NCBI GenBank assembly: GCA_019912425.1
Contig: JAIOIU010000162.1
Coordinates: 1 to 64,000 of the forward strand
Direction of reading: 5' to 3'
Length of the DNA: 64,000 nucleotides
Source: Candidatus Methylomirabilis tolerans
GTDB lineage: Bacteria; Methylomirabilota; Methylomirabilia; Methylomirabilales; Methylomirabilaceae
Part shown: positions 8,613 through 23,852 of the stretch, in pieces
Layout of the letters: every line of letters begins with the position of its first letter
Numbering within the stretch: position 1 is the stretch's first letter
The notes under the pieces: generated by a model
Told to the model about the DNA's origin: nothing
Database searches by the model: none
What the model saw: only the letters and a program-made list of their open reading frames with translations
Translations under genes and position numbers: made by a program

Positions 8613-9071
8613 ATGCAGATTTCACGGATCCTTTTCCCGACCGATTTCTCTCATGATGCCGAACACGCATTCCAGTATGCGTTGATCCTTGCCCGCAAGT
8701 TTGAGGCCGAACTCTACATTCTTCACGTCATCTACTTCCCCCCCCAGACTCCGGAATACGACATCGGACAGGTCATCGACAGCCTGGTCAAGAATGCTCA
8801 GGATAGCTTGAAAAAGCTGGTCGAGAGTGTCAACGATCCGAATCTGGTCCTTCATCTTGACGTGCAGGTCGGGGTGGAGCATGCCGAGATTACGAAATGT
8901 GCTGAGAAGGAAAAGATCGATCTTATCGTGATGGGGACCCGCGGACGAACCGGGCTGGCTCATGTCTTTCTGGGAAGTGTCGCCGAGCGGGTAGTTCGCC
9001 ACGCCTCCTGCCCTGTCCTGACGGTGAAGCTCCCGACAACGAAAGGTGCAGAGGCGGCGACGAAGGGGTGA
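8613..9071 (+). CDS. Universal stress protein (UspA family), ATP-binding type
   Basis: 152 residues beginning SRILFPTDFSHDAE, with VMGTRGRTGLAHVFLGSVAERVVRH-type ending (split: GTRGRTGLAHVFLGS, then VAERVVR). The G-2x-G-9x-G-S ATP motif is complete, so this should be an ATP-binding Usp acting as a homodimer. A GGAGGGG ribosome site supports the start. The stop overlaps the GTG start of the APH-like kinase, which suggests one transcript through to at least 11.1 kb. Confidence 0.93.
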   Translation: MQISRILFPTDFSHDAEHAFQYALILARKFEAELYILHVIYFPPQTPEYDIGQVIDSLVKNAQDSLKKLVESVNDPNLVLHLDVQVGVEHAEITKCAEKEKIDLIVMGTRGRTGLAHVFLGSVAERVVRHASCPVLTVKLPTTKGAEAATKG

Positions 9072-10195
9072 GTGCAGTGTCGATTCGGCACGAAGCGCTG
9101 ACTGCGTATCTCGAAGCCGTCCTTGGCGGCGTCGTACAGGTGCAGGCCCTGAGGCCGCTCACGGGTGATGGGCCTGTTGTTGCCGTGAGGGAGTCTTCGG
9201 TTCCGCAGGATCACGACCTGAAGGCGTTCGGCTATGGCCGGCCTATCCAGATTGACCTGCTTCTGGACGGGATGCCCCGTTCGTATGTCCTTTCTACGAT
9301 GCGAAGTGGCTCGGGCTTCGGCCACGATCACATGGCCGACAGGGCAGGTGCCTTGATTTGGGCGCATGACGCGTACGGGAAGCTTCAACGCCACGTCAGG
9401 AGCATTGATGTCGGCTTCTTCACGGGTGAGGGGCGGATGCAATCGGCCGGGTGCGCAGAAGAGTACTTTCTTTTCGTGGAGAAGGTCGAGGGGACTGCCT
9501 ATCGGGTCGATCTTGAACGGATTCGAATTGAAGGAAAGGCGACCGCTTCCGACTTCGACCGCGCCAGGGCGCTCTCAAGGTATCTGGCGAAGATTCACGC
9601 ACAAAAAGGTCAGGATATCCAATTGTACTTCCGCCGCATTCGGGATCTGATCGGTCATGGTGAGGGGATTATGGGGATTCTTGACGGGTACCCGGTCGAT
9701 TACTCCCTTCTCCCTCCTGAACAGCAGTACGTCATCGAGAGTGGATGCGCGGCCTGGCGACACTACCTGAAAGAAAAGGCCAGGCGTCTGAGTATCGTTC
9801 ACGGCGATTTCCACCCCTGGAACATCCTCTTTCGAGAGGGGACCGATTTCACACTGCTCGATCGAAGTCGTGGGGAATGGGGAGAGCCGGCCGATGATAT
9901 CGCAGCTCTGAGCATCAATTACTGTGTCTTTTCGCTCTTGCGGTCTGGGCACATGGAGGGGCCATTCCGGGAACTGTTTGATCTCTTTTATAGCGAGTAT
10001 CTTGAGCAGACCCGCGATCTGGAGCTGAACTCCGTTATCCCGCTTTTCTACGTCTTTCGGACTTTGGTGATTGCGAGCCCGCGCTGGTATCCTGACCTTC
10101 CGGAGCAGGTGCGCGTAAAACTGTTTCGGTTCGCCCAGGCGATGCTCCGGATCGAGCAGTTCGAGTATAAAGATCTCAACCAATACCTGATGTGA
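9068..10195 (+). CDS. Aminoglycoside phosphotransferase (APH)-fold kinase
   Basis: 375 residues from GTG 9068, which overlaps the previous stop; GTG 9077 is an alternative. The catalytic loop is IVHGDFHPWNILF, with Asp as base and Asn for Mg2+, and a DFG-equivalent follows (LLDRSRGEWGEPADDIAAL). This is the APH/choline-kinase fold, here in a branch paired with a small P-loop kinase. The next gene encodes exactly such a kinase, so the two correspond to the halves of the fused APH/ATP-binding proteins found in dormancy regulons (Rv2004c type). The substrate is unknown; the position beside Usp and Hsp20 genes argues against antibiotic resistance. Confidence 0.8.
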   Translation: MSAVSIRHEALTAYLEAVLGGVVQVQALRPLTGDGPVVAVRESSVPQDHDLKAFGYGRPIQIDLLLDGMPRSYVLSTMRSGSGFGHDHMADRAGALIWAHDAYGKLQRHVRSIDVGFFTGEGRMQSAGCAEEYFLFVEKVEGTAYRVDLERIRIEGKATASDFDRARALSRYLAKIHAQKGQDIQLYFRRIRDLIGHGEGIMGILDGYPVDYSLLPPEQQYVIESGCAAWRHYLKEKARRLSIVHGDFHPWNILFREGTDFTLLDRSRGEWGEPADDIAALSINYCVFSLLRSGHMEGPFRELFDLFYSEYLEQTRDLELNSVIPLFYVFRTLVIASPRWYPDLPEQVRVKLFRFAQAMLRIEQFEYKDLNQYLM

Positions 10196-10204
10196 GGAGA
10201 AGCA

Positions 10205-10786
10205 GTGACGTGGGTGGCGTGGCTCACAGGACTTCCCGGAAGCGGCAAGAGCAGTGTGGGACGCGAGGTCGCTGTGCGCCTGAAGGGGCGGGGAATGCGC
10301 GTACGGGTGCTGGAACTCGATGAGATCAGAAGGGTGGTGACCCCCTCACCGCGTTATACGGCTGAGGAACGCGAGGTTGTCTATCGTGCCCTCGTCTACA
10401 TGGCGTGGCTTCTCTATAACGAGGGGGTCAGCGTGATCATTGATGCGACTGCTCACAGGCGACAGTTTCGCGATGCGGCCCGGGCACTGATCCCCGCCTT
10501 TGCTGAGATCTTTCTCTGCGCGCCGCTTCCGACTTGTCGGGTAAGGGCGGGGGGTCGGCAGGGCAGCTACGCTCCTACGGATGTCTATGGGCAAGCGGGT
10601 CGCAAGGGATCGACCGTTCCAGGTGTCGATGAGGTGTATGAACCGCCGCTTCATCCTGAACTTGTGCTTGATACCGAGGAGCTTCACGTGACGCAAGCGG
10701 CAGATCAGGTAGTGGGGTTTCTTGAAGCGTTTCAGGCCGGCCAGGCGACTGCCTCGGTGACTACGAATTGCGAGGAGAAGCGCTGA
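10205..10786 (+). CDS. P-loop kinase, APS kinase / zeta-toxin-like (AAA_33 type)
   Basis: 193 residues from a GTG with GAGGAGA upstream. GLPGSGKSS at residues 9-17 is the Walker A. VLELDEIRR follows in the place of the DGDxxR motif of adenylylsulfate kinase, and then VIIDATAHRRQFRDAAR. It resembles CysC in its first 130 residues, but no sulfate assimilation gene is nearby. It is 9 bases behind the APH-like kinase, so a joint function with that protein is more likely than PAPS synthesis. Confidence 0.75.
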   Translation: MTWVAWLTGLPGSGKSSVGREVAVRLKGRGMRVRVLELDEIRRVVTPSPRYTAEEREVVYRALVYMAWLLYNEGVSVIIDATAHRRQFRDAARALIPAFAEIFLCAPLPTCRVRAGGRQGSYAPTDVYGQAGRKGSTVPGVDEVYEPPLHPELVLDTEELHVTQAADQVVGFLEAFQAGQATASVTTNCEEKR

Positions 10787-10802
10787 CCTCGGAGGGAGGG
10801 CG

Positions 10803-11075
10803 ATGAGTAGACTGCCGAACCTTCGGATATCGGACATTGCTGACGAGCACGGTGATCAAGGTCAGGCATGTCCTTATCTGCAACGGACTGCCCCGACTTG
10901 CCGGTATCCCATCGAGGGATACTGCTTGGCGCATCCCTATGGGAGGCTCCAGGTCGTTACCATTGCTGAGTTTCGCGAGCTATGTACAACGGTGGAGCAC
11001 GTTCAGTGCCAATTGTACCGCAGTCAGCGTAACCAAGCCCTGATTGAGGGGGATCCGGAACGCGCAGCAGCCTGA
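10803..11075 (+). CDS. Small cysteine-rich conserved-type hypothetical protein
   Basis: 90 residues with a GGAGGG ribosome site, 16 bases after the previous gene. It carries five cysteines (ACPYL, TCRYP, YCLAHPYGR, LCTTV, QCQLY) with His between, spaced as in a small zinc- or Fe-S-binding domain. I do not recognise the family. Its place in the kinase-Hsp20 operon suggests a stress-linked role. Confidence 0.7.
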   Translation: MSRLPNLRISDIADEHGDQGQACPYLQRTAPTCRYPIEGYCLAHPYGRLQVVTIAEFRELCTTVEHVQCQLYRSQRNQALIEGDPERAAA

Positions 11076-11108
11076 TCTGGGGGGGGTTCCCTTATGCCGT
11101 TTCGGAGG

Positions 11109-11140
11109 GGCTGAGCGCTGATTGCTGAACGTTATGTTCC
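11109..11140 (+). repeat. Heptameric (GCTGANN)n repeat, copy B
   Basis: Units GCTGAGC, GCTGATT, GCTGAAC, then a GTTATGTTCCAAGG tail that runs straight into the AGGAGG ribosome site of the Hsp20 gene. It is the shortest copy of the dispersed family. Confidence 0.6.
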
Positions 11141-11159
11141 AAGGAAAGGAGGCACGACA

Positions 11160-11603
11160 ATGGCGCTCGTAAAGTGGACACCATTCGGAGACTTGAGTAC
11201 GTTCAGACGAGAGATGGACCGGCTGTTCGATCGGTTTGTTGGCGAGATGCCTCGACTGGATTTGCCGGGGATGGGGTGGACTCCGCATCTGGATGTGACT
11301 GAAACCAAGGAATCTCTGGTGATTAAGGCCGAGCTTCCCGGTCTGGATGTCAAAGACCTGGATATCAGCATCGCCGGGAATCTGCTGACCCTGAAGGGGG
11401 AGAAACGGCAGGCGAAAGAGGAGAAGGACGAGCACCACCACCTGATTGAACGGTCCTATGGCGCCTTTACCAGGGCGGTCGAGCTCCCGGCGCCGGTTGC
11501 CGCCGATAAAGTTAAGGCCGCCTTTAAAAACGGGGTGCTAACCGTTACCCTGCCGAAGACAGAGGAGGCAAAGCGGAAGGCGATCTCCATTGAGGTTAGC
11601 TAA
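11160..11603 (+). CDS. Small heat shock protein Hsp20 (alpha-crystallin family)
   Basis: 147 residues. The alpha-crystallin domain runs from about residue 38 (TPHLDVTETKESLVIKAELPG) to 140, with GVLTVTLPK near the end, the hallmark of class A bacterial Hsp20. It is a holdase chaperone that binds unfolding proteins without ATP. AAGGAGG precedes the ATG. Confidence 0.95.
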   Translation: MALVKWTPFGDLSTFRREMDRLFDRFVGEMPRLDLPGMGWTPHLDVTETKESLVIKAELPGLDVKDLDISIAGNLLTLKGEKRQAKEEKDEHHHLIERSYGAFTRAVELPAPVAADKVKAAFKNGVLTVTLPKTEEAKRKAISIEVS

Positions 11604-11609
11604 GCTCCG

Positions 11610-11673
11610 GTTTCACGTTCCATGTTCCAGGTGCCACGTTCCGGGTTTCTGGAACCTGGAACATGGCACCTGG
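11610..11673. repeat. (GTTCNNN)n heptameric palindromic repeat
   Basis: Units GTTTCAC, GTTCCAT, GTTCCAG, GTGCCAC, GTTCCGG are followed by their complements (GAACCTG, GAACATG, GCACCTG). Arms 11620-11632 and 11654-11666 form a perfect 13-bp inverted repeat. It lies directly behind hsp20. Relatives occur at 53545-53653 and 56608-56645, inside or next to coding frames. Confidence 0.65.
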
Positions 11674-11689
11674 CTATAGGGAGAGTTCG

Positions 11690-12205
11690 ATGAAGACACC
11701 TGTAATAACACGCAAGCGGACCGCATCGTTCAGGAAGAAGGTAGACACCGAGACCGATTCGTACCTGGCCAAGGGCGCCCCCGGGAAAATGGTGGTGTGT
11801 CACGGGTGCCACGCTCTCTCGGTGGGAAGGCGATGGTATCAGGATGAGGAGGCCTATGCCAAGCTGCTCAAAACAGAAACGGTGAGAGAGGTGTTCTGTC
11901 CGGCGTGTGAGAAGATTCGTGACGGTTATCCGAGCGGGCAGGTGGTGCTTAAAGGGCCATTTCTGGCTGAGCATCGGGATGAGATCCTGCATATTATTAC
12001 CAACGAGGAGAAAAGGGCCAGGGGGCTTAACCCGCTTCATCGGATCATGAGCCTCCGCGAGGAGAATGAGCAGCTTGAGATTACGACAACCGATGAGAAG
12101 CTGGCCCAGCGGATCGGACGGGAGCTTCACAAGGCCTGCGGGGGGACCGTCGCGTACGGCTGGTCGCACAACAACAAATACCTCCGAGTGCAGTGGGAGC
12201 GCTGA
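11690..12205 (+). CDS. BCAM0308-family zinc-ribbon protein (NMD3-like)
   Basis: 171 residues. Two CxxC pairs (C37/C40 in VVCHGC and C70/C73 in FCPAC) form a probable zinc ribbon. A conserved core follows with YPSGQVVLKGPFL, RARGLNPLHRIMSL and a C-terminal TTTDEKLAQRIGRELHKA segment. I recognise this as the family named after Burkholderia cenocepacia BCAM0308, a gene of that species' low-oxygen-activated locus; the zinc part resembles archaeal/eukaryotic NMD3. Function is unknown, and ribosome association is a guess. GGGAGAG precedes the ATG. Confidence 0.8.
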   Translation: MKTPVITRKRTASFRKKVDTETDSYLAKGAPGKMVVCHGCHALSVGRRWYQDEEAYAKLLKTETVREVFCPACEKIRDGYPSGQVVLKGPFLAEHRDEILHIITNEEKRARGLNPLHRIMSLREENEQLEITTTDEKLAQRIGRELHKACGGTVAYGWSHNNKYLRVQWER

Positions 12206-12216
12206 AGGGAAGACCG

Positions 12217-13419
12217 ATGCCCCGGGTTCTTGTTCAGCGGTTAGTACAGCCGCCCATCGGCGAGCAGCGGATCGAGATTGTCGAGCGGAAAGGGTTGGGT
12301 CATCCGGACTCGATCTGCGATGCGGTGATGGAGGGGGTGGCGCGTGCCATCAATGCCGAGTATCAACAGCGCTTTGGCCGGGTCCTCCACAACAATATCG
12401 ATAAGGGGCTCCTGGTGGCAGGGCGAGTGCGCCGGCGGCTCGGCGAGGGATGTATGCTCCGACCGATGGAGCTGGTAATAGGCGATCGCGCCACCTTCCG
12501 TGTCGGCAAGGTAAGGGTTCCGATCAAGGAGATCGCGGTAGAAGCAGCAAGGGAGTGGTTTCGCAAGTCGTTGCGTCACGTGGACCCGAGTCGGCACCTA
12601 CGCTACCGGGTTGTCCTTTCGGAAGGCTCGAACGAGTTGGCCGATATCTTCCGGCGAGAGGGAGTGCGGGAAGCCAATGACACCTCAGCGGCCGTCGGTT
12701 ACGCTCCCTTAAGCGAGACTGAACAGATGGTCCTCTGGGTAGAGCGACATCTGAATTCCCCTGGCTTTAAGACGGCATTTCCTGAGACGGGAGAGGATGT
12801 GAAGGTCATGGGGGTTCGCGCAGATCGGGAGCTTACGCTGACGATTGCTATGCCGCTCTTATGCGAGGCGATCGTATCCGAAGAGGCCTATTTCTGCAAG
12901 AAAGCGGAGATTGCGCAGGCCTTGCGCCGGGAACTCCCAGACTCTCCTGGCTTGGACCGCGTCAACGTGGTCTTCAACCAACTTGATCGAGAGGGTCGCG
13001 GACTGGGTGGTATGTACCTCTCGCTGCTCGGAACATCAGCGGAGGATGCCGATTCCGGGCAGGTGGGAAGGGGGAATCGAGTCAATGGGCTAATCCCGCT
13101 GAACCGACCGGTCAGCGGTGAGGCGGCAGCCGGGAAAAACCCGGTCAGCCACATCGGCAAGATTTATAATGTCCTATCGCACCGGATGGCCGATCAGATA
13201 TACCAGCGGGTCGGCGGGGTGCGGGAGGTGTACGTCTGGCTTGTGGGCCAGATCGGCCGACCGATCGATCAGCCCTGGGTGGCGATCCAACTGATCCAGA
13301 CGTCTGATGCGGAGTCTGAGCGGATCAGACAAGAGTCCGAGCTGGTGATTGATCGGGAGTTAAATCGTTTGACGGATTTTTGCATTGAGTTGACCGAGGG
13401 TAAATATCCCGTTTGCTGA
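12217..13419 (+). CDS. mat: S-adenosylmethionine synthetase, archaeal type
   Basis: 400 residues, the length usual for the archaeal-type family and unrelated in sequence to bacterial MetK. Recognisable stretches are VERKGLGHPDSICDAV near the N-terminus, DKGLLVAGR, SEGSNELADIF, ANDTSAAVGYAPLS and NPVSHIGKIYNVL. It makes S-adenosylmethionine from methionine and ATP. ATG 12217 is preferred over 12193 because a GAAGGGAAG ribosome site precedes it and the homology starts there. It sits between a BCAM0308 gene and a CBS-ACT gene in the stress block, so it may supply SAM under special conditions beside a normal MetK elsewhere. Confidence 0.92.
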   Translation: MPRVLVQRLVQPPIGEQRIEIVERKGLGHPDSICDAVMEGVARAINAEYQQRFGRVLHNNIDKGLLVAGRVRRRLGEGCMLRPMELVIGDRATFRVGKVRVPIKEIAVEAAREWFRKSLRHVDPSRHLRYRVVLSEGSNELADIFRREGVREANDTSAAVGYAPLSETEQMVLWVERHLNSPGFKTAFPETGEDVKVMGVRADRELTLTIAMPLLCEAIVSEEAYFCKKAEIAQALRRELPDSPGLDRVNVVFNQLDREGRGLGGMYLSLLGTSAEDADSGQVGRGNRVNGLIPLNRPVSGEAAAGKNPVSHIGKIYNVLSHRMADQIYQRVGGVREVYVWLVGQIGRPIDQPWVAIQLIQTSDAESERIRQESELVIDRELNRLTDFCIELTEGKYPVC

Positions 13420-13440
13420 GACAAAGGAAAGGAGTCGACG

Positions 13441-14085
13441 ATGCGAGTTAAAGATCGAATGAGGCGCTCGCTGATCAGTGTCGCACAGTCCGACACGCTG
13501 GATCATGCGCTGATGACGTTAAAGCGGTTCAATATCCGCCATCTCCCGGTGGTAAAAGGGGATCGTGTGGTGGGGATTATCTCGGACCGAGACGTGAAGA
13601 AGGCTACCCCCTCCCCTTTTGACTATCCGACCGCGGAGGAGTTCCGAGCCTTCACATCTGCCGTAATCGTCAAGGATATCATGACGAAGGAGGTGATTAC
13701 GGTCTCTCCTCTTACCCCCATCGAGGAGGCCGCCTGCTTAATGAGCCAGAAGCGGATCGGCGCGCTCCCGGTTGTTCAGGAGGGGAGGCTGGTCGGGATG
13801 CTCACCGAGACCGATGTCCTTGGCGTCATAACAGAGATGATGGGGGCCACACAAACCGCGTCTCGCATTGAGATCGAAATCCCGGCAAGTCCGGGCGTGC
13901 TCACCGAGGTCATCCAGATTGTCGAGAGGCAGCAGACAGAGATTGCCAGCCTCGTGACTCTGCCGACTTGTGAAGGAGCGAGACGTCTTTTGATCTTGAG
14001 GCTTCGGACCATCAATCCGGACCCTGTCGTCAAAGCCCTAACAGAGCGCGGTTATCCGCAGGCTGTCGGTGAGTTTGTGCACTAG
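13441..14085 (+). CDS. CBS-CBS-ACT domain protein (AcuB-like)
   Basis: 214 residues. A CBS pair (RVKDRMRRSLISV ... GIISDRDVKKA, then VKDIMTKEVITV ... GMLTETDVLGV) is followed by an ACT-like domain from about residue 140 (IEIEIPASPGVLTEVIQIV). CBS pairs usually bind adenine nucleotides and ACT domains amino acids, so this is a cytoplasmic energy or metabolite sensor. AAAGGAG precedes the ATG. It is followed after 7 bases by a tandem Usp gene. Confidence 0.9.
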   Translation: MRVKDRMRRSLISVAQSDTLDHALMTLKRFNIRHLPVVKGDRVVGIISDRDVKKATPSPFDYPTAEEFRAFTSAVIVKDIMTKEVITVSPLTPIEEAACLMSQKRIGALPVVQEGRLVGMLTETDVLGVITEMMGATQTASRIEIEIPASPGVLTEVIQIVERQQTEIASLVTLPTCEGARRLLILRLRTINPDPVVKALTERGYPQAVGEFVH

Positions 14086-14092
14086 CACGGTC

Positions 14093-14905
14093 ATGCAGAA
14101 GATCCTGATGATGGTCGACGGTTCGTTCGCCGCAGAAGCGGCGGCGCGATACGCCCTTGCTCTGGCCAAGGCCTGCGGGGCGGAGGTCGAGTTGCTGTGT
14201 GTCGCGGTGGATCAATCTGCCGGCGCGATGAAGCGCGCTGAGGAGTCGTTGCTGCGCCTTTTCCGACAGGCGCATGCCCTTGGCCTGAATGTGCGGAGCG
14301 TCACAGAGATGGGCGATCCGGTTCGGGTCATGCGGGACTATGTGGCGCGCGAAGGGATTACGCTGGCTATGGCGTCCGTAACCGGACCGGAGGTTGCGCG
14401 TCGCCTCCTCCGCGAGGTCCCCTGTGCCATGCTGCTGGTGCGGGTGGTCCATCCCGGACGGATGGCGTCGCCCCACGAGATTCTGGTTCCGATCTACGGC
14501 GGTGAGTTTGAAGGCGGCGGCCTCGATGCGGCGGCTGACCTCCTGGCTCATCTTGGCGAGTTCTGGCATGCCCGTGTCATCCTCTTCCGGTTGAGGCAGC
14601 CGCTGACGCGGCTGTTTGATCGCCGGCGTGTCGGCGAGGAGACGCCGGAACAGGCGGAACGAGCGCTGCATCCGTTCATTGCCGCGCTCTCCCGCCGGGG
14701 TCTGGCACCGGGGACGCGTGTCTCGTGGGGCCGTCGCCACGGCCCTGGTATTACGGCTGAGGCAGCGGCCAGGCGACATGATCTCATCTTTGTGGGTACC
14801 AAGGGGCCGAAGAGCTTCCTGCGATGGTTAGGTGCTGGTACTGTGGACCATTTGGTGCGGAAGAGCCCTTGCGATCTGATGCTCTTCCGGCCGGTAGCCG
14901 CCTGA
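14093..14905 (+). CDS. Tandem universal stress protein (two Usp domains)
   Basis: 270 residues with two Usp-like halves. Residues 1-120 (KILMMVDGSFAAEAAARYAL ...) lack the ATP-binding glycines. Residues 135-268 end in FVGTKGPKSFLRWLGAGTVDHLVRKSPC, keeping most of the G-2x-G-9x-G(T) motif. The start at 14093 is chosen by homology; GTG 14069 in the same frame would overlap the CBS gene. The gene immediately precedes the P-type ATPase, and partner Usp genes beside cation ATPases often have a regulatory role. Confidence 0.85.
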   Translation: MQKILMMVDGSFAAEAAARYALALAKACGAEVELLCVAVDQSAGAMKRAEESLLRLFRQAHALGLNVRSVTEMGDPVRVMRDYVAREGITLAMASVTGPEVARRLLREVPCAMLLVRVVHPGRMASPHEILVPIYGGEFEGGGLDAAADLLAHLGEFWHARVILFRLRQPLTRLFDRRRVGEETPEQAERALHPFIAALSRRGLAPGTRVSWGRRHGPGITAEAAARRHDLIFVGTKGPKSFLRWLGAGTVDHLVRKSPCDLMLFRPVAA

Positions 14906-14927
14906 GACATGCGGGCCGTGAGCGAAA

Positions 14928-17684
14928 ATGCAAATTCACCGTCTGGCACCAGAAGAGGCGCTGAAGGCCCTTGGAACTACTGCCCAAGGGTTGAGCGAGG
15001 CCGAGGCAGAGAGACGACTGGGCGAATTCGGCCTCAACGAACTTCAGACCGCGGAAAGGATACCGGTGCTTGCCATGCTGGGGAGGCAGTGCACCCATTT
15101 CCTGGCCATTCTCCTCTGGGCTGCCGCGGCGCTGGCGTTTGTAGCGGATTGGATGAAGCCCGGGGAAGGGATGGATCTGCTCGGCTGGGCCATCATCGGG
15201 GTGATCGGGGTGAACGCCCTCTTCTCCTTCGTGCAGGAGTATAAGGCGGAGCGAGCGATCATCGCCTTGAGGCGCCTCCTGCCTATGCGCGTGAAGGTTG
15301 TTCGAGCTGGCGAGATCAGGGAGGTGCCAGCGTCCATACTGACGCCGGGAGATGTCGCGGTCCTGGCAGAGGGAGATCGAGTGCCTGCCGATGGGCGGGT
15401 GATTGCTGCGGTCCAGTTCCGGGTCGATAACGCGCCATTGACGGGCGAATCGGTCCCCAAGACCCGTACGGTCGAGGCCGCGATGGAGGGGCCTCTCGTC
15501 GAGAGCGCGAACGTCGTCTTTGCCGGCACGACCATCCTCTCGGGGACGGCGAGGGTGGTTGTCTTTGCGACGGGGATGAACACGGAGTTCGGCAAAATTG
15601 CCCACCTGACGGCGGGCGTTGAGGCCGAAATGAGCCCGCTGCAGCAGGAGATCCGAAAGGTCACTCGACTGATTGCTGCGATCTCCGCCGGCATCGGCCT
15701 TGCGTTCTTTGGGCTCGGGGTCCTGAGCGGTCGGAGTTTTTGGGAGAATTTTATCTTTGCGGTGGGACTCCTGGTGGCCAACGTTCCGGAAGGCCTCCTC
15801 CCGACGGTAACCCTCGCATTGGCTGTGGGTGGGCAGCGGATGGCCAAACGAAAGGCACTCATCAAGAACCTGGTGGCGGTAGAGACGCTGGGATGCGCGA
15901 CGGTCATCTGCACGGATAAGACCGGGACCCTCACGGAAAATCGAATGGCTGTCACACGCATCTACAGCGACGGCCGCGAGATTCGGGTTTCGGATGGTTC
16001 AGTGACTACGGAGGCAGGAGAGCCCCTGACCCCCGATCTCCTGAGGCAGTGGGGGCCACTCTTTGCGATAGCCGTCGGGTGCAATGACGCCAGTCGCCGC
16101 AATGGTCTGAATGGAGCAGCGTCAACGTTCCTCGGTGATCCGACGGAGATCGCTCTACTGGAGTGTGCGGCTGCTGTGCTCCCTGACGGGCCTGAGGTGT
16201 TGCCTCGAGTTGGGGAATTCCCGTTCGATGCCGATCGGAAGCGGATGACCACCATTCATGCGAGGGCGTCTGCGAGCAGAGTGGCCTATGTGAAAGGCGC
16301 TCCCGAGACGGTACTGCCGATCTGCCGTTCCACCTTTCGTGATGGGCGAGCACTCCCGCTTGGAGAGATCGAGCGTCAAGCGATCGTGGACCGGCTAAAT
16401 GCGTTTGCCGGATCGGCCTTGCGGGTATTGGCTTTGGCGTATCGCGAGTTGCCGGAGGTCGCCAAGCTCCCGTTGATAGAAGAGACGGAGCGGGATCTGA
16501 CCTTCGTCGGCCTGATCGCCATGTACGATCCGCCAAGACCGGAGGTCCCCGATGCGGTAGCCCGCTGCAGAAGGGCCGGGATCAAGCCGATTATGATCAC
16601 CGGAGATAACAGTCACACGGCGCTGGCCATCGGACGGGCTATCGGGATGATCCAGGGGAATGAGGCTCTGGTTCTTGAGGGTAGCCATGTCGAACGGATG
16701 CGGGACGAGGAGCTCAAGACTGCCCTCACCAGCCCGGAGATCCTTTTTGCCAGGATGGCCCCTGCCCAGAAGATGCGAGTTGTGACGCTCCTGAAGGAGA
16801 TGGGGGAGGTGGTCGCTGTTACGGGCGACGGGGTCAATGATGCCCCGGCCTTGAAGAAGGCCGACATTGGAGTGGCCATGGGGATCGCCGGGACCGATGT
16901 TGCCAAGGAGGCTGCCGATATTGTCCTGCTCGACGACAACTTCGCCACCATCGTCGGCGCCGTCGAAGAGGGGCGGGCGGTCTATGAGAACATCCGGAAG
17001 TTCGTCACCTACATCCTTGCGAGCAATATTCCGGAGATCGTCCCCTATCTGGCTTCGGTGATATTTCGGATCCCCCTCCTGCTCACGATTGTTCAGATCC
17101 TGGCTGTCGACTTGGGTACTGATATGCTGCCGGCCCTGGGTCTTGGGGCCGAGCCGCCGGATGCGAACACGATGGATCGCCCGCCGAGATCCAGAAAGGA
17201 GCGTCTGTTGAATTTCCCGTTACTGGCCAGATCGTACCTGTTTCTGGGACCGATCGAGGCGGCTGCGGCCATGAGCGCCGGACTGTGGTATCTCACCAAC
17301 GGTGGATGGGAGTGGGGTATCGACCTGCCGGCGGCGAACCCGCTCTACAAGCAGGCGACGACGGTGGCGTTCGCTGCGATCGTCATCTGTCAGGTAGCGA
17401 ACGTGTACGTCTGCCGGAGCTCGAGGACATCGATCCTCTCCATGGGTCTTTTCACGAATCGATTTATCGTCTGGGGTATTGCGGTTGAGATCGCGATGTT
17501 GGGCCTGATCGTCTACAGCCAAATCGGACACCGGATCTTCGGGACTGCCGCCTTTGAGGGAGGGTTCTGGTGGTTTCTGCTTGTTTTCGGGGCGCTGTTG
17601 CTTCTTGCGGAAGAGGCGAGGAAGGGAATCGTTCGACGCCTCGATTCGGGGAGAGGACTTCGTTATCAGGAGGGGACCGCATGA
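14928..17684 (+). CDS. P-type cation ATPase, Na+/K+-ATPase-like (P2C) subgroup
   Basis: 918 residues. The A-domain TGES, the phosphorylation site CTDKTGTLT (D330), the N-domain KGAPE and the hinge TGDGVNDAPALK are all present. The transport segments match the Na,K-ATPase branch rather than SERCA: M4 has VPEGLL (P287-L290), M5 has SNIPEIVPYL (E703) and M6 has DLGTDMLPALGLG (D728, D732), equivalent to residues that bind Na+ and K+ in the animal pump. No beta subunit is seen. It is an inner-membrane ATP-driven cation pump, with Na+ or K+ the likeliest ions. The stop overlaps the next start (ATGA). Confidence 0.88.
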   Translation: MQIHRLAPEEALKALGTTAQGLSEAEAERRLGEFGLNELQTAERIPVLAMLGRQCTHFLAILLWAAAALAFVADWMKPGEGMDLLGWAIIGVIGVNALFSFVQEYKAERAIIALRRLLPMRVKVVRAGEIREVPASILTPGDVAVLAEGDRVPADGRVIAAVQFRVDNAPLTGESVPKTRTVEAAMEGPLVESANVVFAGTTILSGTARVVVFATGMNTEFGKIAHLTAGVEAEMSPLQQEIRKVTRLIAAISAGIGLAFFGLGVLSGRSFWENFIFAVGLLVANVPEGLLPTVTLALAVGGQRMAKRKALIKNLVAVETLGCATVICTDKTGTLTENRMAVTRIYSDGREIRVSDGSVTTEAGEPLTPDLLRQWGPLFAIAVGCNDASRRNGLNGAASTFLGDPTEIALLECAAAVLPDGPEVLPRVGEFPFDADRKRMTTIHARASASRVAYVKGAPETVLPICRSTFRDGRALPLGEIERQAIVDRLNAFAGSALRVLALAYRELPEVAKLPLIEETERDLTFVGLIAMYDPPRPEVPDAVARCRRAGIKPIMITGDNSHTALAIGRAIGMIQGNEALVLEGSHVERMRDEELKTALTSPEILFARMAPAQKMRVVTLLKEMGEVVAVTGDGVNDAPALKKADIGVAMGIAGTDVAKEAADIVLLDDNFATIVGAVEEGRAVYENIRKFVTYILASNIPEIVPYLASVIFRIPLLLTIVQILAVDLGTDMLPALGLGAEPPDANTMDRPPRSRKERLLNFPLLARSYLFLGPIEAAAAMSAGLWYLTNGGWEWGIDLPAANPLYKQATTVAFAAIVICQVANVYVCRSSRTSILSMGLFTNRFIVWGIAVEIAMLGLIVYSQIGHRIFGTAAFEGGFWWFLLVFGALLLLAEEARKGIVRRLDSGRGLRYQEGTA

Positions 17685-18025
17685 GACCAAGGGTTGCGCT
17701 ATCTCGTAAGCGGTGGACGAAATCGACAGAGGTTGAACCTTCGAGGGATTACGGAGCGGAAATCGAGAGACCGCTCGATGCTGAAGATGTGGCCCTATCC
17801 TTGCTTGATGCAAAGGTGCGAGCAGAAGAGGCGCGGGCGGACCTCAGTTCCACAGAGCCGCACGCCGGCTTGAGCGTGCGTCTTTCTCGCGCTATGATCT
17901 TGCAACTGCAGACAGAAGCAGCCAAGCGCCACATCACCCCGTCAGAGCTGATCAAGCGAGCTCTTATGCAGTATCGGCCTCTGAGGCAGGCCGGGCGCCT
18001 GTCTGCTCGCCAGGCAGGTAAGTGA
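17681..18025 (+). CDS. Small protein with ribbon-helix-helix-like C-terminus
   Basis: 114 residues, ATGA-coupled to the ATPase and preceded by AGGAGGGG. The N-terminal half is charged and low in pattern. Residues about 65-100 (LSVRLSRAMILQLQTEA, then HITPSELIKRALMQY) fit a CopG/Arc ribbon-helix-helix fold, a small DNA-binding dimer. It may regulate the operon. I do not recognise a named family. Confidence 0.6.
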   Translation: MRPRVALSRKRWTKSTEVEPSRDYGAEIERPLDAEDVALSLLDAKVRAEEARADLSSTEPHAGLSVRLSRAMILQLQTEAAKRHITPSELIKRALMQYRPLRQAGRLSARQAGK

Positions 18026-18094
18026 TGACGCACACACAGATACAGGTACAGACTACGACGGACAATAGGCCCTTACAATAAAGGAGGCTTTCTC

Positions 18095-18658
18095 ATGCTA
18101 GCCGGGTTTCCAAAGCAGGTCACACTTAGGACCGGAACGAGCGTTACGATTCGCCCGATAGTCAAAGAGGATGCGGAAAGGCTCCATGCTTTCTTCTGCA
18201 AGATACCGCGGGAGGATCGCCTTTTTCTGCGGGACGATGTCTCCCTTCGGGAGGTGATCGATTCGTGGATGGATGATCTTGATTACGGGAAGGTCCTGCC
18301 GCTTGTGGCTGAGGTGGACGACGCCATTGTGGCCGACGCCACCTTACATCGCCGAAGATTCGGCTGGACCAGCCACGTAGGAAAGGTACGTCTGGTCGTC
18401 GATAGAGACTATCGGGGGAAGGGCCTCGGGACGCTCATGATCGAGGAGCTGATCAATATTGCCAAGAGGGCAGGCCTTGAAATTCTTGTTGCCGAGATCA
18501 TGGGGGGTCAGACGGTTGCGCTGAGCATCCTCAAGCGGTTGGGATTCGAACGAGAGGCAGTCTTCTACAACTATGTCAAAGACCAAACAGGAGAGGAACA
18601 CGACCTCGTCGTCATGATGAAGAACCTGCAGATTGAGCCGGCCATGGTTCCCTTTTGA
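18095..18658 (+). CDS. GNAT-family N-acetyltransferase
   Basis: 187 residues with the GNAT fold: TIRPIVKEDAERLHAFF at the start and VRLVVDRDYRGKGLGTLMI as motif A, where RGKGLG binds the acetyl-CoA pyrophosphate. ALSILKRLGFEREAVF is motif B. The type resembles protein-lysine or stress-associated acetyltransferases found beside Usp genes. The substrate cannot be told. AAAGGAGG lies before the ATG. Confidence 0.88.
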   Translation: MLAGFPKQVTLRTGTSVTIRPIVKEDAERLHAFFCKIPREDRLFLRDDVSLREVIDSWMDDLDYGKVLPLVAEVDDAIVADATLHRRRFGWTSHVGKVRLVVDRDYRGKGLGTLMIEELINIAKRAGLEILVAEIMGGQTVALSILKRLGFEREAVFYNYVKDQTGEEHDLVVMMKNLQIEPAMVPF

Positions 18659-18680
18659 TCTGAGCCGTGAGGCATGACCT

Positions 18681-18827
18681 ATGAAGCTGGTGATCAGGCT
18701 GAAACCACCTAAGAGACGGGCTCCCCATCGGCCGACAAAGGTGGAGCCACAGAGGGTTCGCTACGATCGGAAGAGGGCCAAGCGATCGGTTCGGGAGGAA
18801 GTGAAGGCGGAGGGCAAGGCCGGCTGA
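18681..18827 (+). CDS. Small basic protein, 48 residues
   Basis: A frame MKLVIRLKPPKRRAP... of 48 residues ending in TGA at 18825-18827, rich in Arg/Lys with a KRAKRSVREE end. A weak GTGAGG lies eight bases upstream. It starts 22 bases behind the GNAT gene. Small basic proteins with an MK(L/I)V(I/V)RL(K/R)PP start occur in similar settings in proteobacteria, to my recollection. Function unknown, perhaps nucleic-acid binding. Confidence 0.5.
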   Translation: MKLVIRLKPPKRRAPHRPTKVEPQRVRYDRKRAKRSVREEVKAEGKAG

Positions 18828-18848
18828 TGCATCATTAAAACCGTCAGA

Positions 18849-18977
18849 GATCAGCTTTCAGCACTGGGTGGAAGAAACTGAAGGCAGATTAGACTGAAGA
18901 GTTTTAGGTAGTTTCCTTTCAGTCTAAATCCCTAGCCGCTGAGCGCTGATGGCTGAACGCTATTTTCTGAGGAATCG
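18849..18977 (+). repeat. Composite heptameric repeat with hairpin, copy C
   Basis: A hairpin block (AGACTGAA 18891-18898 with TTCAGTCT 18918-18925) is followed by heptamers GCTGAGC, GCTGATG, GCTGAAC (18938-18959) and a GCTATTTTCTGAGG tail. The tail leads directly to the ribosome site of the Lon-like gene. The same order (hairpin, heptamers, GCTATTTT, G-rich) recurs near 29.1, 47.3 and 57.9 kb. Confidence 0.7.
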
Positions 18978-18991
18978 ATAATGGAGAGACA

Positions 18992-21433
18992 ATGGTCAGT
19001 CCGTTAAAGCCTGATGCGCTCCGTAAGATTTGCCTGCCGGAAAGCCTCCCCTTCGAAGGGACTGATGATCTCAAGCCCCTGGAGGAGGTTGTGGCCCAGG
19101 ATCGCGCCGTCGAGGCCATCGCCTTCGGTGTCGGTATACGCAGTGAAGGGTTTAACCTCTTTGTCCTCGGGCCTACCGGAACAGGCAAGACTGCGGCGAT
19201 CAAACGCTTTCTGGCTCATGCAGCGGCCAAGCTCCCTACCCCCCCTGATTGGTGTTATGTCAATAACTTCGCTGACCCGCAACGCCCCCGCGCGCTCTGC
19301 CTTCCGCCAGGCCGTGCCCGCCTCTTCCAGGTCGACTGTGAACGGCTCCTGACGGAGTTGAAGACCGGCGTTCCCAGGGCCTTCGAGTCCGAAGCCTATG
19401 AACAGAACCGTCACACAATTCTGGACGAGTTGCAGCAACAGACAAGCGACGAGCTGGAGGCCTTGCGAAAGCGCGCGGAGACGCTTGGGTTCGGACTTGC
19501 CAAGACGGCCAGCGGCTTCATGATCATCCCCATATTTAAAGGGAAGCCGCTGAAACCGGAAGGGTTTGAAGGTCTCGATGAGGAGACCAAGCGGCAGGTC
19601 AACCTGAGAAGCGAAGAGGTGCAGAAGGATCTGGCCGCGACGCGCCGCCGAATCCGCGACCTGGAGCGGGAGGCGAAGAATCGTCTCGACGGGATGGACC
19701 GGGAGGTCGCAACCTCTGCGGTTGATCACCTGGTCGAAGAAGTCAAAGAGCGTTACGCAGATCACGCCATGGTACAGGCGCACCTCGAGGCGATACGCGA
19801 GGATGTTATTGCCAATGTAGATCTGTTTCGTCGGGATCAGAGTGTGGCGCAAGGCCAACCGGAACTGACGGCCATGCTGCGACAGGGGCTGGACCCCTTC
19901 GACCGGTATCGGGTCAATGTCCTGATCGAACATGGGGAAAACGGTGGCGCGCCGGTCGTCGTCGAACCTCACCCAACCTGTCAAAACCTGGTTGGACGGA
20001 TCGAACATCAGGTCAATATGGGCGCGCTCTACACCAACTTCCTGATGGCCAAGGGGGGCGCCTTGCACCTGGCCAATGGGGGGTTCCTGGTCGTGGAGGC
20101 CATGGAGTTGCTCAAGCAATTCTTTGCGTGGGATCAACTGAAGCGGACACTCAAGAACCGCCGGATCAGGATCGAAGAGCCGGGGGAACAGTTTCGTCTC
20201 TACAGCACGGTGACGCTCGAGCCCGAGCCGATCCCCCTCAACGTGAAGGTGGTGCTTATCGGCAGCCCATGGCTCTACTATCTGTTGCACGCCCTCGATC
20301 CGGAGTTTCTGGAGCTGTTTAAGGTTCAGGCAGAGTTCAGCGATCGCGTGGCTCGGACGCCTGAAACAATCCTGACCTTTGCCCGCCTGCTGTCCACCTG
20401 TTGCACGGCCGAGGGACTTAGGGCGTTCGATCGGGGCGCCGTGGCGAAACTGGTGGAGCACAGCTCTCGCCTGGTGGAGGACCAAGAAAAGCTTGCTACG
20501 ACGTTCAGCCACCTGTTGGATGTGGCCCGAGAGGCCAGCTTCCTGGCCGAGCAGAATGGACACTGCCGGGTCATGGCGGAAGACGTGCGGAGGGCTATCG
20601 ACGCGAAGATCAAGCGGGCCAATCGACTGGAGGAGCGGTTGCAGGAACTGGTACTTGATCGGACCTTACTTGTTGATACTGAGGGCGCCGTTGTCGGTCA
20701 GGTGAATGGGATTGCGGTGATCCAACTTGGAGAATATCACTTCGGGAAGCCGAGTCGCATTACGGCGCGAACCTTTCTCGGGCGCGGCGGCATCATCGAC
20801 ATCGAACGCGAAGCCCGGATGGGCGGCCGCCTTCACAGCAAGGGCGTGCTGATCCTTTCAGGCTATCTCGGTGGCCGTTACGTACAACAGGTGCCCCTTG
20901 CCTTGTCGGCAAGCCTCGCCTTCGAACAAGTCTATGAAGAGGTGGAAGGCGACAGCGCCTCCTCATCGGAATTGTACGCGATCCTCTCAAGCCTGTCAGG
21001 ACTGCCGATCAAGCAGGGATTTGCGGTGACAGGGTCGGTCAATCAGCAAGGAGAGGTCCAGGCTATTGGGGCCGTCAACGCCAAGATCGAGGGGTTTTTT
21101 GATGTCTGCCGCGCGAGGGGACTGACGGGAGAACAGGGGGTCCTGATCCCGGCGAGCAATGTCCGGCACCTCATGCTCAGAGAGGATGTCGTGGAGGCGG
21201 TCGCCGCGGGGCAATTTCAGATTATTCCCGTTCACATTATCGATGAGGGGATTGCCTTGCTTACCGGGCGGGAAGCGGGTGAGCGCGGTCCGGATGGGAC
21301 CTTTCCCGAGGGATGCGTGAACGCGCTGGTGCAGGGGCGGCTGCGCGAGATGGCGGAGCAGGCGAGGGCCTACGGAACTGAGAGCCAGGTGTCGTCCAGC
21401 TCAGACCAGAATGACGAGCAGTCCGATGGATGA
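18992..21433 (+). CDS. Lon-like ATP-dependent protease (AAA_32/S16 family)
   Basis: 813 residues. Walker A is GPTGTGKT at 60-67. A long coiled-coil insertion spans about 150-290 (charged, LRSEEVQKDLAATRRRIRDLE). The C-terminal S16 protease domain has the catalytic dyad Ser655 (GDSASSSE) and Lys698 (NAKIEG), 43 residues apart, as in classical Lon. It belongs to the LonB/LonC-like branch lacking the Lon N-terminal substrate domain. Presumed role is cytoplasmic degradation of damaged proteins. GGAGAGACA precedes the ATG. It overlaps ppsA by 23 bases. Confidence 0.92.
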   Translation: MVSPLKPDALRKICLPESLPFEGTDDLKPLEEVVAQDRAVEAIAFGVGIRSEGFNLFVLGPTGTGKTAAIKRFLAHAAAKLPTPPDWCYVNNFADPQRPRALCLPPGRARLFQVDCERLLTELKTGVPRAFESEAYEQNRHTILDELQQQTSDELEALRKRAETLGFGLAKTASGFMIIPIFKGKPLKPEGFEGLDEETKRQVNLRSEEVQKDLAATRRRIRDLEREAKNRLDGMDREVATSAVDHLVEEVKERYADHAMVQAHLEAIREDVIANVDLFRRDQSVAQGQPELTAMLRQGLDPFDRYRVNVLIEHGENGGAPVVVEPHPTCQNLVGRIEHQVNMGALYTNFLMAKGGALHLANGGFLVVEAMELLKQFFAWDQLKRTLKNRRIRIEEPGEQFRLYSTVTLEPEPIPLNVKVVLIGSPWLYYLLHALDPEFLELFKVQAEFSDRVARTPETILTFARLLSTCCTAEGLRAFDRGAVAKLVEHSSRLVEDQEKLATTFSHLLDVAREASFLAEQNGHCRVMAEDVRRAIDAKIKRANRLEERLQELVLDRTLLVDTEGAVVGQVNGIAVIQLGEYHFGKPSRITARTFLGRGGIIDIEREARMGGRLHSKGVLILSGYLGGRYVQQVPLALSASLAFEQVYEEVEGDSASSSELYAILSSLSGLPIKQGFAVTGSVNQQGEVQAIGAVNAKIEGFFDVCRARGLTGEQGVLIPASNVRHLMLREDVVEAVAAGQFQIIPVHIIDEGIALLTGREAGERGPDGTFPEGCVNALVQGRLREMAEQARAYGTESQVSSSSDQNDEQSDG

Positions 21434-23852
21434 CTTCGTGCGTTGGTTTGATGAGATTGATCTTACGGACATCCCGCTGGTGGGCGGCAAGAATGCGTCG
21501 CTCGGCGAGATGTATCAAAACCTCAAGGCTCATGGCGTGCAGGTCCCCTACGGGTTTGCCATCACGGCCGCAGCCTACCGACGCTTCATCAGAGAGAGTG
21601 GTTGCGAGGCGAAGGTCAGGGAGCAACTGAAAGGGCTGAACACCGCTGACATCCTGGATCTACGCTCCCGGGGCAAGGCCATCCGGACGATCATCCTCGA
21701 TGCCCCCTTACCGCTTGCACTTCAGAAGGAGATCGCAGTCGCCTACGAACGGCTGTGCCGCGAGTATGGACCAAACACCGACGTGGCAGTGCGCAGTAGC
21801 GCTACCGCCGAAGACCTGCCCGATGCGAGCTTTGCCGGCCAGCTAGAGACCTATCTGAATGTCCACGGGGTCGCCGGCTTATTGGAGGCCTGTCGGAAGT
21901 GTTTCGCTTCGCTCTTTACCGACCGAGCGATCTCCTACCGTGAGGACAAAGGCTTTGACCACCTGAGCGTGGCACTTTCCATCGGGGTGCAGAAAATGGT
22001 TCGCTCAGACGTCGGCGCCGCGGGCGTCATGTTCACCATCGACACGGAAAGCGGATTTCGCGATTGCATCCTCATCAATTCGGCCTACGGCTTGGGTGAG
22101 AATGTGGTCCAGGGATCTGTGACGCCGGATGAGATCTATGTGTTCAAACCCACGCTGCTCAAGGGCTTCCGCCCCATCCTCCAGCGGACCATGGGGAGCA
22201 AGGAATGGAAGCTCGTGTACGACGAGGAGGGAAGCAAACAGACCAAGAATGTCCCTGTCGCTTGTGACGATCGTCAGCGTTTCGCCATTGAAGGCGACGA
22301 CATCCTGCAACTGGCACGCTGGGGATGCGCCATCGAGGAACATTACACCCGGAGGAGCGGCAGGTACACCCCGATGGACATCGAGTGGGCCAAGGACGGC
22401 AAGAGCGGCGAGCTGTTCATTCTTCAGGCGCGTCCCGAGACGGTGCAATCAGTCAAACGCATGGACCTGCTGCGGGTCTACCGACTGGAAGAGGCGGCAG
22501 AGCCACTCCTCGCAGGGAAGAGTGTGGGAGAGATGATCGGGCAGGGAAGGGCTCGCATTATCGCGGACCCGCGCCACATGGAACAGTTCCACAATGGCGA
22601 GGTTCTGGTGACCGATAAGACCGACCCGGATTGGGAACCGATCATGAAGAAGGCGGCTGCCATCGTCACCAATCGCGGTGGGCGGACCTCGCACGCAGCC
22701 ATCGTCAGCCGCGAGTTGGGGATCCCGGCGGTGGTCGGAACTGAGCAGGGAACAGAAGTGATCGCTGACGGGGAGGCGATCACCGTCTCGTGTGCAGAGG
22801 GCGATGCCGGGTATATCTACCGGGGTCTTCTCAGGTTCACCGTTCGGGAGATCGACCTGGGCACACTTGGCCGACCCAGGACCAAGATCATGCTGAATGT
22901 TGCTAACCCGAGGGAGGTATTCAGCTTGGCGGCCATCCCAAACGACGGAGTTGGCCTGGCGAGGGTAGAGCTTATCATCGGCCATACCATCCGGATCCAT
23001 CCCATGGCGTTGGTCCGCTATGACACTCTCACCGATCAGGCGGCCAGGGCCGAGATCGCTCTGCTGACCGGTGGCTATGACGACAAGCCACAATACTTTG
23101 TGGATAAGCTAGCGGAGGGGGTAGGGATGATTGCTGCCGCCTTCTACCCCAAGGACGTGATCGTCCGCCTGAGCGACTTCAAGACGAACGAATACGCCAA
23201 CCTGGTTGGCGGCAAGGAGTTCGAGCCGACGGAGGAGAACCCTATGCTGGGTTTTCGTGGCGCCTCCCGCTATTACAACGACCGGTACCGGGAGGGGTTT
23301 GCCCTGGAATGCCGCGCCCTGTGGAAGGTCAGAGAGGAGATGGGCTTCACCAATGTGAAGCTGATGGTTCCCTTCGTCCGAACGGTGGCGGAGGGCGAGA
23401 AGGTGCTGGCGGAGATGGCCCGGCACGGACTCACACGTGGAGAGAACAGTCTCGAGGTGTATGTGATGTGCGAGATCCCCAGCAACGTTCTGCTTGCCGA
23501 GGAGTTTGCGGAAATCTTCGATGGGTTTTCTATCGGGTCAAACGATCTGACACAGTTGACGCTGGGGGTCGACAGGGATTCAGAGTTGGTCGCCAAGATC
23601 TTCGACGAGCGGAATCAGGCAGTCAAGAAGCTTGTCACATCGGTGATCACGACCGCACGGACGCAGGGCAGAAAGATCGGCATTTGCGGCCAGGCGCCAA
23701 GCGACTACCCGGAATTCGCGCAGTTCCTGGTCGAAGAAGGGATTGACAGCATCTCATTGAATCCGGATGCTGTCATGAAGATGACGGCGAAGGTGTTGGA
23801 GATTGAGCAGCGGATGGCAGTCAAGCAGATGGAGTTATCGATTGTCCGATGA
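21411..23852 (+). CDS. ppsA: Phosphoenolpyruvate synthase
   Basis: 813 residues, typical PpsA length. The N-terminal ATP-grasp part starts RWFDEIDLTDIPLVGGKNASLGE. The swivelling phospho-His domain has TNRGGRTSHAAIVSRELGIPAVVG with His428, and the C-terminal PEP barrel has EIPSNVLLAEEFAE and ICGQAPSDYPEF. It converts pyruvate, ATP and water to PEP, AMP and phosphate. Together with the PFOR at 3.3-7.1 kb it would link acetyl-CoA to gluconeogenesis. ATG 21411 lies inside the Lon-like gene; ATG 21426 is an alternative. The overlap implies translational coupling. Confidence 0.95.
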   Translation: MTSSPMDDFVRWFDEIDLTDIPLVGGKNASLGEMYQNLKAHGVQVPYGFAITAAAYRRFIRESGCEAKVREQLKGLNTADILDLRSRGKAIRTIILDAPLPLALQKEIAVAYERLCREYGPNTDVAVRSSATAEDLPDASFAGQLETYLNVHGVAGLLEACRKCFASLFTDRAISYREDKGFDHLSVALSIGVQKMVRSDVGAAGVMFTIDTESGFRDCILINSAYGLGENVVQGSVTPDEIYVFKPTLLKGFRPILQRTMGSKEWKLVYDEEGSKQTKNVPVACDDRQRFAIEGDDILQLARWGCAIEEHYTRRSGRYTPMDIEWAKDGKSGELFILQARPETVQSVKRMDLLRVYRLEEAAEPLLAGKSVGEMIGQGRARIIADPRHMEQFHNGEVLVTDKTDPDWEPIMKKAAAIVTNRGGRTSHAAIVSRELGIPAVVGTEQGTEVIADGEAITVSCAEGDAGYIYRGLLRFTVREIDLGTLGRPRTKIMLNVANPREVFSLAAIPNDGVGLARVELIIGHTIRIHPMALVRYDTLTDQAARAEIALLTGGYDDKPQYFVDKLAEGVGMIAAAFYPKDVIVRLSDFKTNEYANLVGGKEFEPTEENPMLGFRGASRYYNDRYREGFALECRALWKVREEMGFTNVKLMVPFVRTVAEGEKVLAEMARHGLTRGENSLEVYVMCEIPSNVLLAEEFAEIFDGFSIGSNDLTQLTLGVDRDSELVAKIFDERNQAVKKLVTSVITTARTQGRKIGICGQAPSDYPEFAQFLVEEGIDSISLNPDAVMKMTAKVLEIEQRMAVKQMELSIVR

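Follow-up and report, generated by a model that had tools for sequence, protein, structure and literature searches.

The pump gene and its ion-site residues

What does a P-type ATPase with the ion-site letters of the animal Na,K-ATPase (NKA) do in a bacterium? The question is raised by an open reading frame (ORF) of Candidatus Methylomirabilis tolerans, whose genus oxidises methane with nitrite, found in the window, by which we mean the whole stretch of 64,000 nucleotides analysed here (from contig 162 of a genome of 2.65 Mb, 99.96% complete). As the first-pass annotation had described it, the ORF (14928-17684, forward strand, 918 aa) is intact, beginning with ATG and running without internal stops. 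It is not a chance ORF, because orthologues with 75-89% identity are found in nearly every genome of the genus. The features discussed below are the following, with the residues of the pump matched to those of NKA by alignment:

13441..14085, +, two-CBS-domain protein, overlapping the Usp gene (Pfam CBS; syntenic in the genus)
14069..14905, +, two-domain universal stress protein (Usp), directly upstream of the pump gene with a 22 nt gap (Pfam Usp, two stretches)
14928..17684, +, P2C-type P-type ATPase, catalytic subunit, 918 aa (ORF, NCBIfam, Pfam, PDB, trees, AlphaFold model)
15774..15803, +, M4 VANVPEGLLP with E288 (NKA E327)
15915..15929, +, DKTGT phosphorylation motif with D330 (invariant in alignments)
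17010..17036, +, M5 with Y695, S699, N700 and E703 (NKA Y771, S775, N776 and E779)
17109..17123, +, M6 DLGTD with D728, T731 and D732 (NKA D804, T807 and D808)
17391..17402, +, M8 from Q822 to N825 (Q822 is NKA Q923; N825 replaces NKA D926)
17487..17489, +, M9 E854 (NKA E954, Na+ site III)
17681..18025, +, small RHH-like protein (ORF listed from GTG at 17570; RHH_1 20.6 bits, cut-off 20.5)

The protein is a P-type ATPase of the P2 kind: the DKTGT, TGES and TGDGVND motifs are present, and invariant across the alignments of the family, and the P2 domain set is full, with Pfam E1-E2_ATPase, Hydrolase, Cation_ATPase_N and Cation_ATPase_C all above cut-off. Against the PDB (phmmer) the Na,K-ATPase scored 570 bits, LMCA1 458 and SERCA 454. 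The top NCBIfam model was TIGR01106 (Na,K/H,K alpha) with 645 bits, compared with 591 for the PMR1-type and 532 for the SERCA-type model, and with 420 (cut-off 645) for the P2D (ENA) model TIGR01523. The curated cut-off of TIGR01106, 946 bits, was not reached by the pump and was passed in none of 72 bacterial genome searches. This model appears to be tuned to animal alpha subunits, so that the shortfall weighs against an "animal-type" pump more than against membership in the wider P2C clade.

The first-pass annotation had pointed to VPEGLL, SNIPEIVPYL and DLGTDMLPALGLG as NKA-like strings. All three are present, and E703, D728 and D732 were correctly numbered and align with NKA E779, D804 and D808. 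Over the positions compared (V283, A284, V286, E288, Y695, A698, S699, N700, E703, D728, T731, D732, Q822, N825 and E854 in the pump) the only differences from NKA are T774A (A698) and D926N (N825), with E327, Y771, S775, N776, E779, D804, T807, D808, Q923 and E954 all retained. By alignment, the ligands of sites I and II are kept, and Na+ site III, to which D926 of NKA belongs, is partial, A698, N825 and E854 standing where Na,K-ATPase proper has the complete set of T774, D926 and E954. As D926N and T774A alter ligands of this site, a 3Na+:2K+ stoichiometry is uncertain.

Only a part of the likeness noted at first is diagnostic. Bacterial P2A pumps have S/T/C775, N776, E779, T807 and D808 in common with the window pump, and PEG in M4 is likewise common in many of them, but they carry N804, and E954 is missing from nearly all. 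Because the other letters are shared in this way, the signal is carried by D804 and, less cleanly, by E954, not by the whole motif strings; the residues expected of P2C (D/E at 804, E at 954) are found in the pump as D728 and E854. Raw similarity of the TM segments was dropped as evidence, a Bacillus P2A pump being as similar there (49% identity) as NKA (48%).

Placement among the P2 subfamilies

The tree had 66 rows and was anchored by shark NKA (the sole animal P2C), human SPCA1, Listeria LMCA1 and plant ACA8, by PMCA-like pumps from viral-collection contigs and by P2-type paralogues of the same genomes, with E. coli MgtA as the outgroup; the PacL-like and viral-contig pumps served as anchors only, and ENA pumps were absent from the anchors. 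The bacterial family and shark NKA formed one clade (SH-aLRT 100). P2B (ACA8 and the bacterial PMCA-like pumps) formed a clade of its own, and the P2A rows (LMCA1/SPCA1) lay outside that of NKA. When the site segments of M4, M5, M6, M8 and M9 were removed the clade of NKA and the bacterial family still stood at 100/99, and forcing NKA outside the family, P2A and P2B was rejected (p-AU 0.0023). Nesting of NKA in the bacterial family and a sister position to it were not separated (AU p 0.30). Judging from these trees, the pump belongs to the P2C branch (Na,K-/H,K-ATPase). The first-pass annotation had proposed such a phylogeny, naming a position within the Ca2+ groups as the outcome that would count against it; the pump grouped with the Na,K-ATPase.

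Placements in P2A and in P2B were both ruled out by the trees with and without the ion-site columns, and the pump has neither the N804 of the former nor the A779 and N804 of the latter. This bears on the alternative of a P2A-type efflux pump for Ca2+ (or another divalent ion) whose motif letters would be convergent. The many letters held in common with bacterial P2A pumps speak for it. The bacterial Ca2+ pumps of P2A type, LMCA1 among them, resemble the window pump in the core catalytic machinery, in the membrane plan and presumably in having no beta subunit. They differ in N804, in the lack of E954 and in lying outside the P2C clade, a placement that holds without the motif segments. Besides, the genome already has two further P2-type pumps (L104 and L105), both with N804. 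We consider a Ca2+ pump very unlikely. One of these two paralogues (L105, 1456-4569) has an N-terminal extension of ca. 100 aa ahead of the ATPase and reads TNASE in M5.

Predicted structure and the beta subunit

The AlphaFold2 model of the pump, built on 32 homologues, had a pLDDT of 80 and a pTM of 0.68. Foldseek ranks 1-36 for this model were all Na,K- or H,K-ATPases, the top one in the E1.3Na+ state (TM 0.81, 34% identity), and SERCA came at rank 37 (TM 0.77). The predicted fold alone leaves the ion unfixed. The animal Na,K-ATPase alpha (shark 2zxe, pig/human) is the best PDB match of the window pump both by sequence and by fold, and they share the clade, the ligands of sites I and II, Y771, Q923, E954 and S775. 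They differ in that the window pump is only ca. 40% identical, carries D926N and T774A, has a shorter N-terminus and is one for which no beta/FXYD partner was found. The beta subunit domain (PF00287) was matched in none of 60 genomes of the phylum and the control likewise matched nowhere; the absence of the subunit is only suggested.

A widespread bacterial family and its natural variants

The pump is not an isolated finding, as the family is widespread in bacteria. Matches with 44-58% identity to it were found at no fewer than 80 loci (at least) across many bacterial phyla, those among the matches listed including Nitrospirota, Pseudomonadota, Desulfuromonadales-type lineages, Chloroflexota, Bacillota, Actinomycetota, Cyanobacteriota and others. 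Plasmids also bear family members, and the usual annotation is that of a cation-transporting P-type ATPase. One P2C pump with DLGTDMLPALGLG (L166, 1072-3864) lies on a 16.5 kb contig that was classed as viral and is possibly bacterial sequence.

According to a 2023 review (PMC10654040), methanogens among the archaea have uncharacterised P2C ATPases in which every residue of the Na+ and K+ sites is conserved, and the review asks "P2C ATPases: what do they do in archaea?". By that description the archaeal pumps, likewise prokaryotic P2C, keep all the site residues, whereas the window pump has D926N and T774A. The role of prokaryotic P2C is listed there as an open problem, to which the bacterial branch adds a K+ gene context. 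Many hosts that can be grown in culture carry it (Pseudomonas, Bacillus, Thermoanaerobacterium, Flexilinea), and S775H and D808E occur in it naturally, so that how the Na,K and H,K types came to part and whether a beta subunit is needed can be tested directly.

These variants came from a survey of 116 sequences selected for having D804. Q923 was present in all 116 and E954 in 109, and D926 was replaced by N in 100. Two pumps with D804 (L233 and L234) carry E954G. Ser775 had become His in 22 of the 116 (about 11 changes when mapped on the tree), and D808E was found in several, with 6 changes, sometimes alongside S775H. At S775/N776 of M5, HT stands in place of SN in two species (L009, L010) of the window's genus. 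The H,K-ATPase has Lys791 at the position of NKA 775 (PDB titles among the structure matches name K791S), and, since His arose there repeatedly, a basic or protonatable residue at 775 is a recurrent event. In Flexilinea (L089 598-10104, and L095) there is a tandem pair of P2C-like pumps; in the first of them M4 is divergent and E954 is missing.

The His775 variants at the Lys791 position, together with the change of Asp808 to Glu and the HT of L009 and L010, favour another reading, that of a P2C pump exchanging H+ and not Na+ for K+ as the gastric H,K-ATPase does, or of a counter-ion that varies among relatives. The gastric enzyme has the P2C fold and the K+ site in common with the window pump. 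However, the latter has the Na,K-type S775, N776 and D804 and not the K791/E820 of the H,K-ATPase, and we regard this reading as unlikely.

K+ transport genes next to related pumps

A Usp gene lies directly upstream of the pump across Nitrospirota, Methylomirabilota and some Desulfuromonadales. Among the upstream ORFs tested, 18 of 24 (the window's own counted) were Usp; at one locus (L013) no Usp adjoins the pump. A different subclade has a pair of trkA genes (PF02254, PF02080) directly after the pump. We counted this arrangement in sampled genomes of Chloroflexota and Bacillota, taking flanks of equal size and classing the pumps by residue 804, and trkA was directly downstream at 13 of 15 P2C (D804) loci versus none of 34 P2A (N804) loci (Fisher p 4e-10, uncorrected for kinship). 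The trkA-linked pumps are confined to one part of the tree, so that the link has few independent origins. Three Nitrospirota loci (L029, L039 and L042) have kimA, the gene of a K+ importer, downstream of the pump, its product 44-45% identical to the KimA of the window's own genus, and in Flexilinea a KimA-like gene stands upstream of two P2C pumps, after which comes the trkA pair. In Thermoanaerobacterium (L058, 10329-12461) a gene for a membrane-bound pyrophosphatase (H_PPase) comes right after the P2C-TrkA-TrkA genes.

Within the window's genus neither kimA nor trkA adjoins the pump. The genome has KimA followed by two TrkA genes on contig 86 (L227, 8043-11480), away from the pump. There is no TrkH match in this genome (control matches in 11 of 14), and the TrkA pair apparently serves KimA.

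The TrkA/KimA context of the relatives favours K+ handling and disfavours a role in Ca2+ export. The ion, which the first-pass annotation had inferred, we still infer, and this context now supports K+. It involves K+ alone, and Na+ site III is partly altered, both of which would suit an electrogenic P2C pump for only K+ or only Na+, without counter-transport. Yet every residue of sites I and II that serves both K+ and Na+ in NKA is retained, and we hold this to be the least probable of the readings. No paper on a bacterial P2C operon with TrkA or KimA was found in the literature searched, which takes in few of the subscription journals; this operon association and the His775 variants are the new elements here. 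Tentatively, bacteria may hold a broad beta-free Na,K-type branch that forms a functional unit with K+ regulators (a TrkA pair) or with KimA, and in which the repeated S775H could be an independent parallel to the lysine switch of the H,K-ATPase, changing the counter-ion or the electrogenicity.

The stress-type cluster and the probable role of the pump

In the window the CBS, Usp, ATPase and RHH genes are consecutive, separated by 22 nt gaps or overlapping, with the ATG of the RHH-like gene at 17681 overlapping the ATPase stop codon. The tandem Usp of the first-pass annotation proved to be two Usp domains at 14069-14905, and the small RHH-like protein is there, although its RHH domain is marginal. 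Their pairing with the pump had been called unusual, but Usp is a clade-wide upstream neighbour; the RHH-like gene was seen in this genus only (its product 50-71% identical across it). The order Usp, kinases, Hsp20, SAM synthetase, CBS, Usp, ATPase, RHH, GNAT, LonC-like and PPS is syntenic in the genus; the pump-adjacent Usp is missing from one genome (G007) and only a Usp fragment was detected in another (G002).

The co-directional stress-type cluster at 8613-23852 comprises two Usp, APH-like and APS-kinase-like kinases, Hsp20, CBS, GNAT, LonC-like and PPS genes, a content that we take to resemble the DosR dormancy regulon of M. tuberculosis. CtpF of that species is likewise a P-type pump whose gene belongs to a stress/dormancy set, with presumably similar Usp and Hsp20 company, and is likened to the window pump by gene set, not by sequence. 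It is DosR-regulated and a reported Ca2+ pump (PMC9180918, PMC3573892), which is a further point for the Ca2+ reading, and has been classed as P2A (PMC7525011).

Weighing the sequence comparisons as a whole, we think that the window pump is probably a beta-less bacterial P2C relative of the NKA alpha subunit, exchanging Na+ (or H+) for K+ and contributing to K+ homeostasis within a stress cluster. In an ATP-driven P-type cycle D330 would be phosphorylated and the pump would switch between E1 and E2, exporting cytoplasmic Na+ (possibly H+) and importing K+ across the cytoplasmic membrane, presumably without a beta subunit. Together with systems of the KimA/TrkA type it would serve K+ homeostasis, and it might come into play under stress, when the cell has to retain K+. 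Its gene lies in a stress cluster with those for Usp, CBS, Hsp20 and a Lon-like protease; Usp, CBS or TrkA may regulate it. A bacterial P-type Na+ pump has been reported before, the Na+-ATPase of Exiguobacterium aurantiacum, according to a citation in PMC2928168; we liken it to the window pump by description and not by comparison of sequences.

A search of the whole window for an FNR-type box gave one match with one mismatch (1.3 expected by chance), away from the pump gene. The cluster also includes an archaeal-type methionine adenosyltransferase (12193-13419; NCBIfam NF003363 above cut-off) and a small protein that matches the NMD3 family weakly (11663-12205; 29 bits), which is syntenic in the genus.
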